Below, piece by piece: positions 8,282 to 15,250 of a DNA stretch of 64,000 nt. A program made the translations under genes and the position numbers. Position 1 is the stretch's first letter, and each line of letters opens with the position of its first letter. The notes under the pieces were generated by a model. It ran no database searches. It saw only the letters and a list, made by a program, of their open reading frames with translations, and was not told the origin of the DNA. Where the stretch lies: the NCBI RefSeq assembly GCF_003696365.1, contig NZ_RFFM01000002.1:1116001-1180000 (forward strand), read 5' to 3'. Source of the stretch: Stutzerimonas zhaodongensis (lineage in GTDB: Bacteria; Pseudomonadota; Gammaproteobacteria; Pseudomonadales; Pseudomonadaceae).

Positions 8282-8295
8282 TTGATTCAAATCAA
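8282..8295 (+). promoter_or_regulatory. ANR/FNR box upstream of cytochrome c peroxidase
   Basis: TTGATTCAAATCAA matches the FNR/ANR consensus TTGAT-N4-ATCAA at every fixed position. It lies 57 bases before ATG 8353, a position suitable for activation of the peroxidase gene at low oxygen. Confidence 0.85.
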
Positions 8296-8352: not shown

Positions 8353-9384
8353 ATGCGCCCTTCTCTTTCCGTCCTGATCAGCGGACTGATGCTGATGACC
8401 CAAGTGGCAGCTGCCGATGACTTGCGTGACCGCGCCAATGCCATATTCAAGCCGATCCCCGACAAGGTCACCGAAGTCCGAGGTAAAGCCGTCAGCGCCG
8501 AGCAAGCGCAATTAGGGCATAAGCTCTGGTTCGATCCCCGGCTGTCGCGCAGTCATGTCATCAGTTGCAACACCTGCCACAACCTCAGCCTGGGAGGCGG
8601 TGACAACGTCACGACCTCGATCGGCCATGGCTGGCAGAAAGGCCCGCGCAACTCGCCCACGGTGTTGAACGCGGTATTCAACGCTGCGCAATTCTGGGAC
8701 GGCCGCGCTGAAGACCTGCAGGCTCAAGCGAAGGGACCGGTGCAAGCGGGTGTTGAAATGAACAACACGCCGGAGCGCGTCGTCGCTACGCTAAAAAGCA
8801 TCCCGGAATACGCCAGCGAGTTCAAAAAAGCCTTTCCTGGCGAACAGGATCCAGTCAGCTTCGACAACATGGCCTATGCCCTCGAGGCTTTCGAGGTCAG
8901 TCTGACCACCCCTGATTCGCCATTCGACCGCTATCTCAAAGGTGACGACAAGGCGCTCGACGCCAAGCAGAAAGAGGGTCTGGCCCTTTTCATGGATACC
9001 GGCTGCTCCGCCTGCCACAGCGGCGTTAACGTTGGCGGCCAGGGCTATTTCCCGTTCGGGGTAATCAAGAAGCCGGGCGCCGAGATTCTGCCTAGTGGGG
9101 ATAAGGGGCGCTTCACCGTGACCAATACAGCTTCGGATGAATACGTGTTCCGCGCAGCACCACTGCGCAACGTAGCGCTGACGCCCCCCTACTTTCACAG
9201 CGGCGAGGTCTGGGACCTGGAACAAGCCGTCGCAATCATGGGAGACAGTCAGCTTGGGCGCACCCTCAAGGAAGATGAGGCCGGTGCAATCGCAGCCTTC
9301 TTGCGCAGCCTAACGGGCAGGCAACCGCAGGTGACCTATCCGGTACTACCCGCCAGCACACCCGACACCCCTCGGCCTGAATAA
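8353..9384 (+). CDS. ccpR: Dihaem cytochrome c peroxidase
   Basis: Periplasmic dihaem peroxidase reducing hydrogen peroxide with electrons from small c-type cytochromes or azurin. ATG 8353 follows AAGGA and starts a signal peptide (MRPSLSVLISGLMLMTQVAA, cleavage about 20-21); the 343-residue length fits the family. Two haem-binding motifs are visible: CNTCH near residue 72 (peroxidatic haem) and CSACH near 218 (electron-entry haem). HGWQKGPRNSPTVLNA and a late PYFHSGEVWDLEQAV are typical family segments. The perfect ANR box upstream suggests oxygen-limited expression. Position matches PA4587 relative to the Lon-like gene. Confidence 0.95.
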   Translation: MRPSLSVLISGLMLMTQVAAADDLRDRANAIFKPIPDKVTEVRGKAVSAEQAQLGHKLWFDPRLSRSHVISCNTCHNLSLGGGDNVTTSIGHGWQKGPRNSPTVLNAVFNAAQFWDGRAEDLQAQAKGPVQAGVEMNNTPERVVATLKSIPEYASEFKKAFPGEQDPVSFDNMAYALEAFEVSLTTPDSPFDRYLKGDDKALDAKQKEGLALFMDTGCSACHSGVNVGGQGYFPFGVIKKPGAEILPSGDKGRFTVTNTASDEYVFRAAPLRNVALTPPYFHSGEVWDLEQAVAIMGDSQLGRTLKEDEAGAIAAFLRSLTGRQPQVTYPVLPASTPDTPRPE

Positions 9385-9400
9385 GCTTGACGTCCAGCCT

Positions 9401-9415
9401 GCGGCCTTAGGCCGC
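9401..9415 (+). terminator. Hairpin after the peroxidase gene
   Basis: GCGGCC (9401-9406), TTA loop and GGCCGC (9410-9415) form a short strong stem 16 bases after the stop, followed by GGGTTT. The weak T tract makes termination only moderately likely. Confidence 0.45.
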
Positions 9416-9486
9416 GGGTTTGAGCCTCGACGCTCATACCCTCCTGAACTAGCCTCCGGTTACATGCACCAAAATGGTGAACACCG

Positions 9487-9849
9487 ATGGCTTTGCATCA
9501 CGCTCGATCAGGGGAAGTAGTCAACGTCCTCACTCACTCGGAACTGCCCGCGGTTCAATCGCAGGCCATCGTCAGCACACCCGATCTCGAAGTCATGCGG
9601 CTGTGCATGCCCGAGGGCAAGCAGGTCCCGCCCCACGCCGTTGCTGGCGCCATCACGCTGTTGTGCTTGCAAGGCGAGGTAGAAGTTCAGGCGCATGGCG
9701 CCTGGCACACCCTGCAGGTGAACGATCACCTGTATCTCGATCGCCATGTAGAACATGCCCTGAGGGCACTCTCAGACGCCGTGGTACTGGTGAACATCCA
9801 GCGCCGGATTGAAACCAGAGCGGACGCAAACCAGACAAGCACTAACTAA
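9487..9849 (+). CDS. Small cupin-domain protein
   Basis: A 120-residue single-domain cupin beginning MALHHARSGEVVNVLTHSEL. The conserved beta-barrel signature is visible as a first motif around PHAVAGAITLLCLQGEVEV (residues 49-67) and a second around VNDHLYLDRHVEHALRALSD (78-97); His 50, His 87 and His 90 could bind metal. No signal peptide is seen. It is the first gene of the run cupin-microprotein-norCBQD, and only 48 bases separate its stop from the next start. A sensor or metal-handling role for denitrification is possible but unproven. The start lacks a strong ribosome site. Confidence 0.75.
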   Translation: MALHHARSGEVVNVLTHSELPAVQSQAIVSTPDLEVMRLCMPEGKQVPPHAVAGAITLLCLQGEVEVQAHGAWHTLQVNDHLYLDRHVEHALRALSDAVVLVNIQRRIETRADANQTSTN

Positions 9850-9897
9850 CGGCAGCCGTGCAGCGATGCGTCGGTCAACGAAAGGAGCACAGCTTTG

Positions 9898-10005
9898 GTG
9901 AAGTTCTTACGAGTTCTCAGTTTTGTGGTGTTGGCGCTGATGGCTACCGCGGTCATCTACGCCGGCGTCATGGGTATCGTCCACTGGGCCGGTATCGGCG
10001 TTTGA
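9898..10005 (+). CDS. 35-residue single-span membrane microprotein upstream of norC
   Basis: A short frame with the ribosome site AAAGGAG (9881-9887) and a start at GTG 9898 or TTG 9895. It encodes VKFLRVLSFVVLALMATAVI and continues to a C-terminal HWAGIGV. Lys 2 and Arg 5 precede a hydrophobic stretch of about 20-25 residues, so a single membrane span with cytoplasmic N-terminus is predicted. The stop lies 13 bases before norC. Heme-copper oxidases of P. stutzeri have a comparable tiny subunit (CcoM of cbb3 oxidase), so an accessory role for the NO reductase is a reasonable inference. No homologue is recalled with certainty. Confidence 0.65.
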   Translation: MKFLRVLSFVVLALMATAVIYAGVMGIVHWAGIGV

Positions 10006-10018
10006 GCGGAGCCTCAAG

Positions 10019-10888
10019 ATGAATAAAAGACAAACCCGGTTGTTCGCCATTGGCTCGACATTGGTAGCGTCATTGGTATTCATCGGCCTGACGATCGACA
10101 GCCACAGGCAGTTCCCCAAGTTGACCAACGCCGAAAACATCACTCCGGCCGTCACTCGCGGTAATGATGTATGGCACGCCAACAACTGTATCAACTGCCA
10201 CACGCTGTTTGGTGAAGGTGCCTACTACGCACCCGACCTGACAAAGATCACCCAGCTTCGCGGCGCACCCTATCTCAAGGCGTTCTTGCAGGACCCGGAA
10301 CGTTTTTATGACGAGCAGCGCCATCGCCGGCTGATGCCCAACCCCGACCTCAAAGATGAAGAGATCGATGATCTAATTGCTTTCTTCGACTGGGTTGCGA
10401 ACGTCGACAATCAGGGCTGGCCACCTCGACCGATTCTCGTAACGGGATCGTCCATTCCCGGCACCAGCCTGACCATTGCACAGCAGGACGCTTCCGGGCC
10501 AGGCAGAACCCAAGAGCAGATGCCGCCTGGTGCTCGCCCAGTCACCGGCGACGAGGACCCCATCGCACTTGGCGAGGCGCTCTTCCGCACGGCTAGCCCT
10601 GCCTGTAACGCCTGCCACTCGATAGCGCCCGGTGTGAACATGGCCGGGCCGACGCTGGCGGACTTGGTGACTCGAGCGCAGCAGACCATCGCCTCACCTG
10701 AGTATCAGGGCGAGGCCGAAACGGTAGAAGACTTCATCCGCGAATCAATCGTGGCGCCAAGCGCCTACCTGCACCCCGGCGATATGTACTCGGCCGGCGG
10801 TGTGTCCTTCATGCCCACCAGTTACGGCGAATCGCTGACCGACGAGCAGATCGATCAGCTGGTGCAGTACCTGGCGTCTTTCAAATGA
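10019..10888 (+). CDS. norC: Nitric oxide reductase cytochrome c subunit, with an added second haem c domain
   Basis: NorC passes electrons to NorB for reduction of NO to nitrous oxide at the periplasmic face of the membrane. Residues 1-145 look like an ordinary NorC: membrane anchor at about 7-24, haem site CINCH at 57-61, axial Met in RLMPNP at 106. Ordinary NorC is about 146 residues, but this product has 289. A linker rich in Pro and Gly (about 146-180) leads to a second cytochrome c domain with CNACH at 196-200 and a probable Met ligand at 265 (VSFMPTSYG). The frame is continuous with no internal stop. It precedes norB by 45 bases. The function of the extra haem is unknown. Confidence 0.93.
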   Translation: MNKRQTRLFAIGSTLVASLVFIGLTIDSHRQFPKLTNAENITPAVTRGNDVWHANNCINCHTLFGEGAYYAPDLTKITQLRGAPYLKAFLQDPERFYDEQRHRRLMPNPDLKDEEIDDLIAFFDWVANVDNQGWPPRPILVTGSSIPGTSLTIAQQDASGPGRTQEQMPPGARPVTGDEDPIALGEALFRTASPACNACHSIAPGVNMAGPTLADLVTRAQQTIASPEYQGEAETVEDFIRESIVAPSAYLHPGDMYSAGGVSFMPTSYGESLTDEQIDQLVQYLASFK

Positions 10889-10933: not shown

Positions 10934-12304
10934 ATGCGCTATAAATCACAATCGGTCGCCTACTGGTACTTCGCCGTGGCGATGGTGCTTTTCGGACTGC
11001 AGTTGGTGTTCGGCCTGCTGTCCGCCACCAAATACCTGGGCCCGGATCCATTGCTGAACATCCTGCCGTTCGATGTCACCAAGGTGATCCACACCAACCT
11101 GCTGATCGTCTGGGTGCTGACCGGCTTCATGGGAGCCACCTATTGGATGGTGCCGGATGAATCGCGTACCGAACTGCACAGCACCAAGCTCGCCTACATC
11201 CAGCTGGGCCTTTGGACAGCCATGGGCGTCACCGCAGTCATCGGTTACCTGTTCGGCTATGGCACAGGTAACAAGCTGCTGGAGCAGCCACTGCCACACA
11301 AGATCGTCATCGTCATATGCATGCTGATCTTTCTCTACAACATCGGTATGACCATCAAGAAATCCGGCCGCTTCACCACCACAGAAGGCGTGCTGCTGCT
11401 CGGTCTGGTCAGCTCCGCCGTGCTGTTCTTCCCCGCCCTGCTGCACTACGAGAATTACACCGTCTCCATCTTCTATCGTTGGTGGACCATTCATCTGTGG
11501 GTGGAAGGCGTATGGATGATGATCATGGGCGCCTTCCTTGCGTATCTGCTCATTCGACTGTCTGGAGCAGACCGTGAGGTGCTGGAGAAATGGCTTTACG
11601 TCATCGTCGGCCTGGTCTTCATTGCCGGCATTCTCGGCACCGCGCACCACTATTACTGGGTCGGCGTGCCGCATTACTGGCTGCCCATCGGCGGCTTCTT
11701 CAGCGCGCTTGAGCCGTTGGCAATCATCGGTATGGCCATGTATGCCTACAGCGCCATGCGCCGCTCGGGGATGGCACACCCCAACTCCCTGGCACTGCAC
11801 TGGACACTCGGCAGCACCATCTTCACGCTGTTCGGCGCAGGCTTGCTGGGGCTGGCACATACCTGGCCGAGCATCAACAAGTGGACCCATGGCACGCTTA
11901 TCACAGCCATGCACGGGCACGCCGCTTTCTATGGCGCCTACGCCATGATCGTGCTGGCGATGATCACCTATGCGCTGCCATCACTGACCAACAAGCGTCC
12001 TGAGCAAGGCACCACCATTGGCTACTGGGCGTTCTGGTTGCAGCTGGCCGGCATGTTCGGCATGACCCTTTCATTCGCCACGGCAGGAATCGGCCAGGTC
12101 TATCTGGAACGGATCATGGGCATGGGCTATCTGGATGCTCAATTGAAGATCCAGATTCACTTCGTGATGCTGATCTCCACTGCCTGTATCTTCTCCCTCG
12201 GCGTCGGCTTGTTCATCTACGATTTCTTTAGCTATCGACCGCGTTTCGAGGTCGATGCAAACGAAGCGATGGAAACCAACTTCGCCGCAGAGCGGGCAGT
12301 CTGA
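10934..12304 (+). CDS. norB: Nitric oxide reductase catalytic subunit
   Basis: Twelve-helix heme-copper-superfamily subunit that couples two NO molecules to nitrous oxide at a haem b3/non-haem iron centre. The 456 residues contain the expected ligands: His 53 and His 329 for haem b, His 327 for haem b3, and His 187, His 238 and His 239 for the non-haem iron. Glu 191 and Glu 260 match the conserved glutamates. Compared with my memory of P. aeruginosa NorB, numbering is offset by 7 at the first His and by 20 later, so about 13 residues of an early loop are absent. The ligand set is complete, so the enzyme should be active. Ends seven bases before norQ. Confidence 0.96.
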   Translation: MRYKSQSVAYWYFAVAMVLFGLQLVFGLLSATKYLGPDPLLNILPFDVTKVIHTNLLIVWVLTGFMGATYWMVPDESRTELHSTKLAYIQLGLWTAMGVTAVIGYLFGYGTGNKLLEQPLPHKIVIVICMLIFLYNIGMTIKKSGRFTTTEGVLLLGLVSSAVLFFPALLHYENYTVSIFYRWWTIHLWVEGVWMMIMGAFLAYLLIRLSGADREVLEKWLYVIVGLVFIAGILGTAHHYYWVGVPHYWLPIGGFFSALEPLAIIGMAMYAYSAMRRSGMAHPNSLALHWTLGSTIFTLFGAGLLGLAHTWPSINKWTHGTLITAMHGHAAFYGAYAMIVLAMITYALPSLTNKRPEQGTTIGYWAFWLQLAGMFGMTLSFATAGIGQVYLERIMGMGYLDAQLKIQIHFVMLISTACIFSLGVGLFIYDFFSYRPRFEVDANEAMETNFAAERAV

Positions 12305-12311
12305 GGTGGGC

Positions 12312-13127
12312 ATGGATCAATCGGTGCACGACCTCACTGCTAACCAACCCAGGGACGAGCCCTGGTACCGCCCTGCAGGCAACGAAGTCAGCCTGTTCGA
12401 GCACTGCCACAACCGCGGTCTGGCCGTCATGCTCAAGGGGCCGACCGGCTGCGGCAAGACCCGCTTCGTCGAACACATGGCATGGCGCCTGGGTCGGCCG
12501 CTGATCACCATCCCCTGTCACGACGACCTAGCGGCAAGCGACCTTATCGGTCGCTACCTGATCCGCCACGACGGCACCGTCTGGCAGGATGGGCCGCTCA
12601 CCCGAGCGGTTCGCGAAGGCGCCATCTGCTATCTCGACGAGGTGGTCGAGGCTCGGCAGGACACCGTGGTCGTGCTGCACGCACTGACCGACTACCGACG
12701 GACATTGCCGATCGACAAGACCGGCGAGAGCGTCAGGGCTGCGCCGGGTTTCCAACTGGTCGTTTCCTATAACCCCGGCTACCAGCGCATGCTCAAGGAC
12801 CTGAAGCCCAGCACCCGACAACGCTTCGTCGCCATGGACCTGGACTTTCCAGCAGCCGAGCACGAAGCGCTGATCGTGCAGCATGAAAGCGGGGTCGAAA
12901 CGGCCCTCGCCAAAGGGCTGGTCAGCCTTGCCGGGCGGATTCGCCAGCTGCGCGACCGCGGCCTGGCGGAGGTGCCAAGCACTCGACTGCTGATCGCCGC
13001 GGGCACACTGACCCTCTGTGGCATTCCGGTACGGGAGGCCTGCTATGCCGCCATCGTCTCGCCGCTGTCCGATGAACCCTCGATGGTCAGCACCCTGCGC
13101 GATCTGGTTGACGGCACTTTTGTTTAG
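12312..13127 (+). CDS. norQ: NorQ/CbbQ-type MoxR AAA+ ATPase for NO reductase activation
   Basis: Cytoplasmic AAA+ ATPase that works with NorD to insert the non-haem iron or otherwise mature NOR. ATG 12312 (MDQSVHDLTANQPRDEPWYR) follows GAGGTGG; 271 residues is the family length. The Walker A motif GPTGCGKT lies near residue 42 and the Walker B-like AICYLDEVVEAR near 105. VVSYNPGYQ and TRQRF (sensor and Arg-finger regions) follow. The gene is tightly coupled to norB. In the classical P. stutzeri arrangement I recall, the norQ/nirQ gene sits near nirS rather than after norB. Confidence 0.93.
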   Translation: MDQSVHDLTANQPRDEPWYRPAGNEVSLFEHCHNRGLAVMLKGPTGCGKTRFVEHMAWRLGRPLITIPCHDDLAASDLIGRYLIRHDGTVWQDGPLTRAVREGAICYLDEVVEARQDTVVVLHALTDYRRTLPIDKTGESVRAAPGFQLVVSYNPGYQRMLKDLKPSTRQRFVAMDLDFPAAEHEALIVQHESGVETALAKGLVSLAGRIRQLRDRGLAEVPSTRLLIAAGTLTLCGIPVREACYAAIVSPLSDEPSMVSTLRDLVDGTFV

Positions 13128-13213: not shown

Positions 13214-15250
13214 ATGGCTGAAGCCGAAGAGCTGGTCAGCGACGCCGCGCGCCACGCAACCGTTTTCGCGCAGCGGCTGTGGCGACGCTATCGTCCCTTA
13301 CCCAAAGGCCCGCCAACAGTGCTGCTCGCCGATAACGCAGCCCGCCTGGACCTTTTGATTACGGCCGTTACGGGTATGAGCTACCCGATCAGGATCGCTC
13401 AGCCACCGGCGCTGCCAACCCTGCTAGCGCGGCTCTTCCGACGCTCCCAGGCCCCCTGGCAACGGCAGGCAGTTCCAGCTACAGACGGCCGGAGGCTTTG
13501 GCTACCTGCTGACTCCTGCATCGAGGACCCCGTCAGAGGGAGTGAACACTATCGAGTCATGGCGCTGCAGCAGGCGATACGGGCTAAACGAGGCAGCGCA
13601 GACCTCAGTGACCAGATGCTGTCGCCGCTGCAAGCGGACGCCTACCTGCTGCTCGAAGCCTGGGCGGTCGATGAAGCACTGGTCGGAATGCTGCCAGGCC
13701 TGGCTCCAGCCGTTGAGGCCTTTCGGCAACATGCATTGCGACAACGGCCCGCCTTCTCGACCTTCTCACGCGCTCGGCAGCCGCTCGAAGCACTGCTGCG
13801 CCAGCTGCTCGCCAGCCCCTGCAGTCAGAGGCCACCTGGCTTCACCTTGAGCGAGTCGCCAGAGCATTCAAGATCTCTGATCGGACCATTGCTCGCCACG
13901 CTGAACCTGCCATCGGATGCTCGCTCGCTGGGTAACGCGCCGCTGCTCAGGGATTGCTGGACCGGCAGCCTCGTGCGCCCCAGCGGGACTACCGAAGTGC
14001 TGACCGAAAGACAGCCAGCTGACGATTCATTTACCAAGGACGCCACTCCACCGCGCGGTGCCAAGCTGGCACGTCGCCCCGATCTTCGCCAAGCGACGGA
14101 GGACGAGGACAAGCACGACGATGGAATATTCATGGTGCAGGCCGACGAGCCGCACCAGCATGCGGAGGACCCGCTGGGCTTGACTCGCCCGGTGGATCAC
14201 GATGAGAACACGAGCGCCGATGATTATGGCGACATGCTTTCCGAACTCCCGGAAGCACGTCTTGTGTCGATGCCTGGCAGGCCCAAGGAAGTGCTGATTT
14301 CGGACGACCCGCCCGACGGCAATACAGCCCTGCAACTCAAGCGAGCTATCGCTGATGGACAGGGCCTGCGATATCCCGAGTGGGACTACCGGGCCGGGCA
14401 CTATATACAGCCAGGAGCGACAGTCAGAGTGTTGCCCAACCTGCCCGGATCTCAGCAGTGGGTCGAGGCCACACTGCAAGAGCACCGCTCGATGCTGAAC
14501 CAGATCCGCAGGCGCTTCGAAATGCTCAGGGCCCGTCGAGTAACGCGACGGCGTCAGCTGGACGGCGATGAGATCGACTTGCAGGCCTATATCGACAGTT
14601 ATGCCGACTTCAGAGCAGGCGGTTCGCTTTCCGACGCCTTGTATCAGAACCGCCGCACAGCGGAACGGGACCTGGCCATCACATTGCTCATCGATGTCAG
14701 TGGTTCAACCGATGGCTGGGTGTCGGCCGAACGCAGGATCATCGATGTGGAGCGCGAGGCGCTGCTGATCGTATGCGTCGCGCTGGAAGGCCTGGGCGAG
14801 CCCTATGCCGTGCAGGCCTTTTCCGGAGAAGGGCCGGACGCCGTCATCGTTCGACAGCTGAAAAGCTTCAACGAACCCTTCAGCAACGATGTGGCACTGC
14901 GGATCAGCGCTCTCGAGCCTGAGCATTACACCCGGGCGGGCGCGGCTATTCGCCACTCAACCAGCAGCCTTCTGGAGCAACCGGCAACTCACCGCCTGCT
15001 GCTCCTGCTCTCGGATGGCAAGCCAAACGACAAGGATGAATACGAAGGGCACTACGGCGTTGAGGACATGCGACAGGCCGTGACCGAAGCCAATCTTCAA
15101 GGCATTTCGACGTTCTGCCTGACGATCGATCGCCAGGCAGCCAGCTATCTGCCGAAGGTGTTCGGCGCGCACCAGTACGCGTTGCTTCCCAAGGCAGAGC
15201 TGCTCCCGGTCGTTCTGCTGGAATGGCTCAAGCGGCTGATCGCGACGTGA
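13214..15250 (+). CDS. norD: NorD, von Willebrand factor A domain activator of NO reductase
   Basis: Partner of NorQ in activating NO reductase. The start is uncertain: ATG 13214 (MAEAEELVSDAARHATVFAQ, 678 residues) is preferred, GTG 13202 is possible and TTG 13181 unlikely. The middle (about 280-340) is acidic and low in complexity. The C-terminal VWA domain carries the metal-ion-dependent adhesion motif IDVSGST near residue 492, with a later LLLLSDGKPND. No membrane segment is seen. It follows norQ after 86 bases and ends the norCBQD run; the next gene, mscL, is convergent. Confidence 0.92.
   Translation: MAEAEELVSDAARHATVFAQRLWRRYRPLPKGPPTVLLADNAARLDLLITAVTGMSYPIRIAQPPALPTLLARLFRRSQAPWQRQAVPATDGRRLWLPADSCIEDPVRGSEHYRVMALQQAIRAKRGSADLSDQMLSPLQADAYLLLEAWAVDEALVGMLPGLAPAVEAFRQHALRQRPAFSTFSRARQPLEALLRQLLASPCSQRPPGFTLSESPEHSRSLIGPLLATLNLPSDARSLGNAPLLRDCWTGSLVRPSGTTEVLTERQPADDSFTKDATPPRGAKLARRPDLRQATEDEDKHDDGIFMVQADEPHQHAEDPLGLTRPVDHDENTSADDYGDMLSELPEARLVSMPGRPKEVLISDDPPDGNTALQLKRAIADGQGLRYPEWDYRAGHYIQPGATVRVLPNLPGSQQWVEATLQEHRSMLNQIRRRFEMLRARRVTRRRQLDGDEIDLQAYIDSYADFRAGGSLSDALYQNRRTAERDLAITLLIDVSGSTDGWVSAERRIIDVEREALLIVCVALEGLGEPYAVQAFSGEGPDAVIVRQLKSFNEPFSNDVALRISALEPEHYTRAGAAIRHSTSSLLEQPATHRLLLLLSDGKPNDKDEYEGHYGVEDMRQAVTEANLQGISTFCLTIDRQAASYLPKVFGAHQYALLPKAELLPVVLLEWLKRLIAT

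Follow-up and report, generated by a model that had tools for sequence, protein, structure and literature searches.

The closest described relatives of the enzyme reported here are the canonical cytochrome c-type nitric oxide reductases (cNORs) of P. aeruginosa (3o0r) and R. denitrificans (4xyd), with which it shares the NorB fold and catalytic residues, the first NorC domain with its GEGAY motif and the gene order norCBQD. It differs from them in having a second haem c domain in NorC, a NorB of a separate clade (43-49% identity) and a strictly linked upstream microprotein. Among haem-copper superfamily enzymes, the caa3 oxidases, such as that of Rhodothermus marinus, likewise have a class-I cytochrome c fused to their electron-entry subunit, and it is at this fused domain that electrons enter (PMC5928083). 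These oxidases reduce O2, however, and their cytochrome c lies behind a CuA domain, whereas that of the present NOR lies behind a haem c domain. The cbb3 oxidases share with it a dihaem c entry subunit (CcoP) and a tiny subunit, CcoM, which in Stutzerimonas is 36 amino acids long (PMC10433244); they differ in being built of CcoN, CcoO and CcoP and in reducing O2. A third small subunit, NorH, has also been described for the NOR of Thermus thermophilus (PMC5748679), where the gene order is norCBH, unlike the present locus with its small gene 5' of norC. Both CcoM and NorH are likened to the microprotein by description and not by sequence.

The locus lies in a window of 64,000 nucleotides, the whole stretch of DNA that was analysed (Table 1). 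In an earlier note on this DNA, it was claimed that the NOR subunit NorC carries an extra haem c domain, and this is well supported by the conservation of the domain, the single NorB clade and a fold match of the caa3 type. The two-haem NorC type is a real and new variant of cNOR; a description of a dihaem or fused NorC was not found in the open-access literature, and one may have appeared earlier in a subscription journal. On balance, we lean towards the joint reading that the locus represents a distinct cNOR clade, in which the second haem would act as a tethered electron-entry module and the microprotein would be a probable third subunit.

Table 1 Features of the two-domain NOR locus (positions in the window)
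Feature	Position	Strand	Description	Evidence
FNR/DNR-type palindrome	8282-8295		TTGATTCAAATCAA, exact, 5' of the di-haem protein gene	
Di-haem protein gene	8353-9384	+	MauG/CCP-like family	
Cupin gene	9487-9849	+	between di-haem protein gene and micro-ORF	
Ribosome-binding site	9881-9887		AAAGGAG, seven bases 5' of the micro-ORF TTG codon	
Micro-ORF	9895-10005	+	MVKFLRVLSFVVLALMATAVIYAGVMGIVHWAGIGV, 36 aa, TTG start, one TM helix; a candidate for a third subunit of the NOR	
norC	10019-10888	+	two-domain (dihaem) NorC, 289 aa	translation, domain search, alignment
NorC domain 1	10019-10432	+	N-terminal TM helix (residues 3-36) and, up to residue 138, the canonical cytochrome c domain of NorC	PDB sequence match, AlphaFold, Foldseek
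Haem c motif 1	10187-10201	+	CINCH, residues 57-61	translation, alignment
Met106	10334-10336	+	axial ligand of haem 1	invariant 112/112
NorC linker	10430-10552	+	residues 138-178; conserved PILVTG at start, variable beyond	pLDDT, pN/pS
NorC domain 2	10553-10885	+	residues 179-289, the added cytochrome c domain of class I	domain search, profiles, Foldseek, pN/pS
Haem c motif 2	10604-10618	+	CNACH, residues 196-200	translation, alignment
Met265	10811-10813	+	inferred axial ligand of haem 2	invariant 112/112
norB	10934-12304	+	catalytic subunit; retains the FeB ligands HHYYW and the equivalents of Glu211 and Glu280, with Met at that of Glu215	
HLWVEGVWM in norB	11492-11518		contains the P. aeruginosa Glu215 equivalent	
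norQ	12306-13127	+	MoxR-type AAA+; start inferred from relatives	domain search, relatives
norD	13214-15250	+	VWA domain; start inferred from relatives	domain search, relatives

Architecture and conservation of the dihaem NorC

The norC frame gave 289 residues with no internal stop, and the earlier description of one unbroken frame with CINCH at 57-61, Met106 and CNACH at 196-200 was borne out by translation and alignment. Met265, previously given as probable, was the right call because it is invariant in all 112 aligned two-domain NorCs, as are C57, C60, H61, M106, C196, C199 and H200. Many of these 112 sequences are close relatives or come from one species fetched twice, and counts among them are therefore not independent events. 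Pfam found two cytochrome c stretches in the protein. Residues 6-137 align with the P. aeruginosa NorC (3o0r_C, 146 aa; E 7e-25) and with that of R. denitrificans (4xyd_B), and residues 1-137 provide the membrane anchor and haem c domain of a NorC together with GEGAY, a calcium-site motif that is invariant in the two-domain alignment. For residues 184-285 the sequence matches are separate class-I cytochromes c, 1w2l among them. Judged by sequence, the second cytochrome domain is an addition to an otherwise canonical NorC.

An AlphaFold model of the NorC polypeptide alone, made with 47 homologues, exhibits a TM helix at residues 3-36, the NorC domain, a disordered linker (pLDDT below 50 at 133-163 and 167-174) and a separate helical C-domain. 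The mean pLDDT of 68.5 is moderate, and hence the outline of the model alone was trusted. In the Foldseek search, 3o0r_C and 4xyd_B (both on domain 1) were followed in third place by 1w2l (E 0.04, probability 1.00), the cytochrome c domain of the Rhodothermus marinus caa3 oxidase. When sequence profiles of the C-domain were used, the dihaem Kuenenia protein Kustd1711 came first, with 1w2l behind it.

The pN/pS ratio was found to be 0.23 in domain 1, 0.35 in domain 2 and 0.54, the highest of the protein, in the linker, indicating that domain 2 is under purifying selection and that the linker is freer. That domain 2 is vestigial or merely a structural appendage might be argued from its pN/pS being above that of domain 1, but the ratio is nevertheless only 0.35, and the haem motif, the axial Met and many more residues are invariant across two bacterial groups, which makes this explanation very improbable. 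The idea that an error of sequencing or assembly fused two genes can be given practically no weight, since the same frame recurs in 112 sequences, including those of complete genomes and plasmids; no stop and new start occurs near residues 150-180, and the second CxxCH is kept in 112/112.

A microprotein encoded upstream of norC

The micro-ORF 5' of norC was overlooked in the earlier note. A homologue is located directly 5' of norC in every one of the 113 two-domain loci that have this region; the 113 homologues represent 74 distinct sequences of 36-43 amino acids, one being cut by a contig end, and they end 8-75 bases (mostly 8-24) before norC. The micro-ORF is under purifying selection, with a pN/pS of 0.52 in frame as compared to 1.10 and 1.33 when the two remaining frames are read, and with codon-position entropies of 0.97, 0.64 and 1.39. 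Its core is strongly hydrophobic and its N-terminal side positive, and this hydropathy and charge suggest an N-in, C-out topology in which the conserved YWxGIGV end would face the periplasm. In the Stutzerimonas nirK lineage, the protein ends in GINV. No Pfam or NCBIfam family fits the micro-ORF, for which only scattered weak matches of single members were obtained, and no match was found in the PDB. It is unannotated in the Eleftheria and Aquabacterium plasmid records, the plasmid gene table being incomplete.

A profile search found the microprotein in 45 of the 248 genomes of the family sample, which are exactly those with a two-domain NorC and where it adjoins norC; there was additionally one weak partial match inside a longer frame. 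Among the 243 genomes of a class-wide sample, it was present only in G000, G015 and G417, besides one weak partial match. Since both samples contain many genomes with an ordinary cNOR, the microprotein goes with the two-domain type and not with NORs at large. It probably sits beside NorB and NorC as a third subunit, though it could be an assembly factor instead.

NorB clade, distribution and genome context

The closest PDB match of the window NorB is 3o0r_B (E 5e-109). The protein is of the NOR branch of the haem-copper superfamily and has the FeB ligands and the active-site Glu; HLWVEGVW, GTAHHYYW and FSALE are conserved, and the FeB-site, HxH and calcium-site residues are kept. The maturation genes follow in the usual order, NorQ with AAA and CbbQ_C domains and NorD with a VWA domain, so that the norC-norB-norQ-norD order proposed earlier was confirmed by domain searches and by the loci of relatives. 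The NorBs paired with a two-domain NorC share 74-98% identity with that of the window, compared to 43-49% for canonical cNorBs, and a maximum-likelihood tree places them in one group (100/100 support) apart from all NorBs that have a one-haem NorC as neighbour. On this sequence evidence, the window NOR is a cytochrome c-type NOR of a distinct clade.

Other assignments were considered and rejected. A qNOR is a single fused NorC-NorB-like chain that has a quinol site but lacks haem c, whereas here norC and norB are separate genes and NorC has two CxxCH motifs. A NOR of the CuA or cupredoxin type (bNOR, sNOR, eNOR) does not apply either, as the subunit is a NorC plus a cytochrome c; no cupredoxin domain was found in the window NorC with Pfam. 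Met takes the place of Glu215 (P. aeruginosa numbering) at 44 of 115 loci, a count that includes duplicates; this replacement was discarded as a group-wide mark because Met occurs only in a gammaproteobacterial subset and Glu in the rest.

When GTDB genomes were scanned with an alignment of the C-domain, 142 relatives were confirmed, of which the best 80 were kept for locus analysis. These 80 belong to the Gamma- and Betaproteobacteria (Pseudomonadaceae, Marinobacteraceae, Idiomarinaceae, Cellvibrionaceae, Steroidobacteraceae, Alcaligenaceae, Comamonadaceae, Oxalobacteraceae, Sphaerotilaceae and Rhodocyclaceae), except for one MAG contig labelled Polyangiaceae. In 79 of the best 80, norB follows the two-domain norC, the remaining one reaching a contig end; these 79 also have norQ (incomplete at one locus), and norD is present in all but four. 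The database check suggested earlier, for other genomes with a two-domain NorC in norCBQD order, has yielded many such loci. At the level of the Pseudomonadaceae, a full or nearly full two-domain NorC was found in 45 of 248 genomes (61-100% identity), and in a class-wide sample of 369 genomes NorC of the window type was found only in G000, G015 and G417. Two further two-domain NorCs were found in Eleftheria and Aquabacterium, where plasmids or secondary replicons carry them and the annotation of the genes reads only 'cytochrome c' and 'cbb3-type oxidase subunit I'. The Pseudomonas fluorescens genome G985 has two copies of the two-domain NOR (L050, L061) and a canonical cNOR; full norQ and norD are missing at L061. 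In the MAG locus L106, norB and norD are apparently split by frame breaks (8425-9750, 8469-8780).

The host genome also has a canonical norCB, missed in the earlier note, about 122 kb away near nirS. When 33 genomes of this group were searched for NorB-like genes (E <= 1e-20), the two-domain NOR was the only such enzyme found in 13, some assemblies being drafts, so that 'only' means only one found; these include Diaphorobacter nitroreducens, Pusillimonas noertemannii, Parapusillimonas granuli and Pseudidiomarina terrestris. The other 20 have canonical cNOR, qNOR-like genes or both besides the two-domain type. As ten of the 13 have nirS (called by cytochrome d1, E <= 1e-20) or nirK (family cut-off), the two-domain NOR plausibly serves denitrification on its own.

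The gene directly 5' of the micro-ORF-norC unit is nirK in 8 of the best 80 of the 142 loci, and the family sample has further Stutzerimonas loci of this kind, the Stutzerimonas order being nirK - micro-ORF - two-domain norC - norB - norQ - norD. The NirK adjoining the operon (L094 6041-7417; L159 3562-5265) has an extra N-terminal cupredoxin domain, and neighbouring enzymes therefore both have fused electron-transfer domains. An 'extra norCBQD' after nirK clade II is reported for Stutzerimonas in PMC13086519 and is very probably the same operon; the passages on it treat the cluster as an ordinary cNOR and mention neither the second haem domain nor the small gene. In the window, the di-haem protein gene, cupin gene, micro-ORF and norCBQD are all on the forward strand and hence may form a single operon in this lineage. 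A shared promoter just 5' of the microprotein was rejected, as the FNR/DNR type was found at only 3 of 81 loci and the sigma-54 type at only 7 of 81.

Possible roles of the second haem

The best reading of domain 2 appears to be that of a tethered electron-entry haem, which is favored because its fold is nearest to that of the caa3-fused cytochrome c domain. The membrane-anchored haem c of NorC domain 1 would supply haem b of NorB with electrons, and domain 2, the further class-I cytochrome c, would be tethered to domain 1 by the flexible linker of about 40 residues. Haem 2 would be reduced by a donor in the periplasm, or else by bc1 or another membrane partner, and would swing in and reduce haem c 1, as is thought for the fused cytochrome c of caa3, and the single-helix microprotein of 36-43 residues would sit beside NorB and NorC as the third subunit. 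The computation shows the two haem motifs with their ligands, the clade, the operon and the strictly linked microprotein gene; haem loading, the direction of electron flow, the movement of the tether and the membership of the microprotein in the complex are what we infer. Domain 2 as a built-in donor, or as a link to a different partner, both put forward in the earlier note, fits these observations. A broader proposal, which we offer tentatively, is a three-subunit NOR with two haems c (microprotein-NorC2-NorB), where the tethered cytochrome c and an obligate membrane subunit of about 40 residues would allow NO reduction without a free soluble donor; it would have a single origin and have been passed between Beta- and Gammaproteobacteria, sometimes in one operon with the cupredoxin-fused NirK.

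Domain 2 might otherwise dock the NOR onto a partner, the bc1 complex or a nitrite reductase, with direct transfer or NO channelling in a supercomplex and no relay from soluble carriers. The nirK genes adjoining some loci, with their extended NirK, would suit such docking, as would the binding of the cd1 nitrite reductase to NorC in P. aeruginosa (PMC6872814). The two-domain NOR occurs with nirS, nirK, both or neither, however, so that there is no single nitrite reductase partner, and a constant one was rejected; the neighbourhoods of the best 80 of the 142 loci likewise have no donor or partner gene that is constantly adjacent. We consider docking rather unlikely. Still less probable is that haem 2 acts as an electron store, or as an outlet to another acceptor such as the upstream di-haem cytochrome c peroxidase-like protein, and not as an entry haem. 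That gene lies upstream on the same strand behind an exact FNR/DNR-type box, but it is found at about five loci only, whereas the two-domain NorC is invariant.

The electron supply of NOR bears on the release of toxic NO and of the greenhouse gas N2O by denitrifiers, and a tethered cytochrome with a linked microprotein would offer a natural system in which to test if NO reduction is limited by soluble cytochrome c or azurin. The microprotein is a likely third subunit for a textbook two-subunit enzyme. The locus also provides a simple sequence marker to separate two types of cNOR that are now annotated alike, or just as 'cytochrome c' and 'cbb3-type oxidase subunit I'.

In genome G459 (L035 1372-2211, L131, L158 4610-5452), a different two-domain NorC was observed, whose second cytochrome domain is shorter and resembles CBB3/FixO. 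The micro-ORF was not found beside it at these three loci. Its NorB (52% identity) forms a long branch beside the two-domain clade in the tree, and this NorC is possibly an independent fusion.
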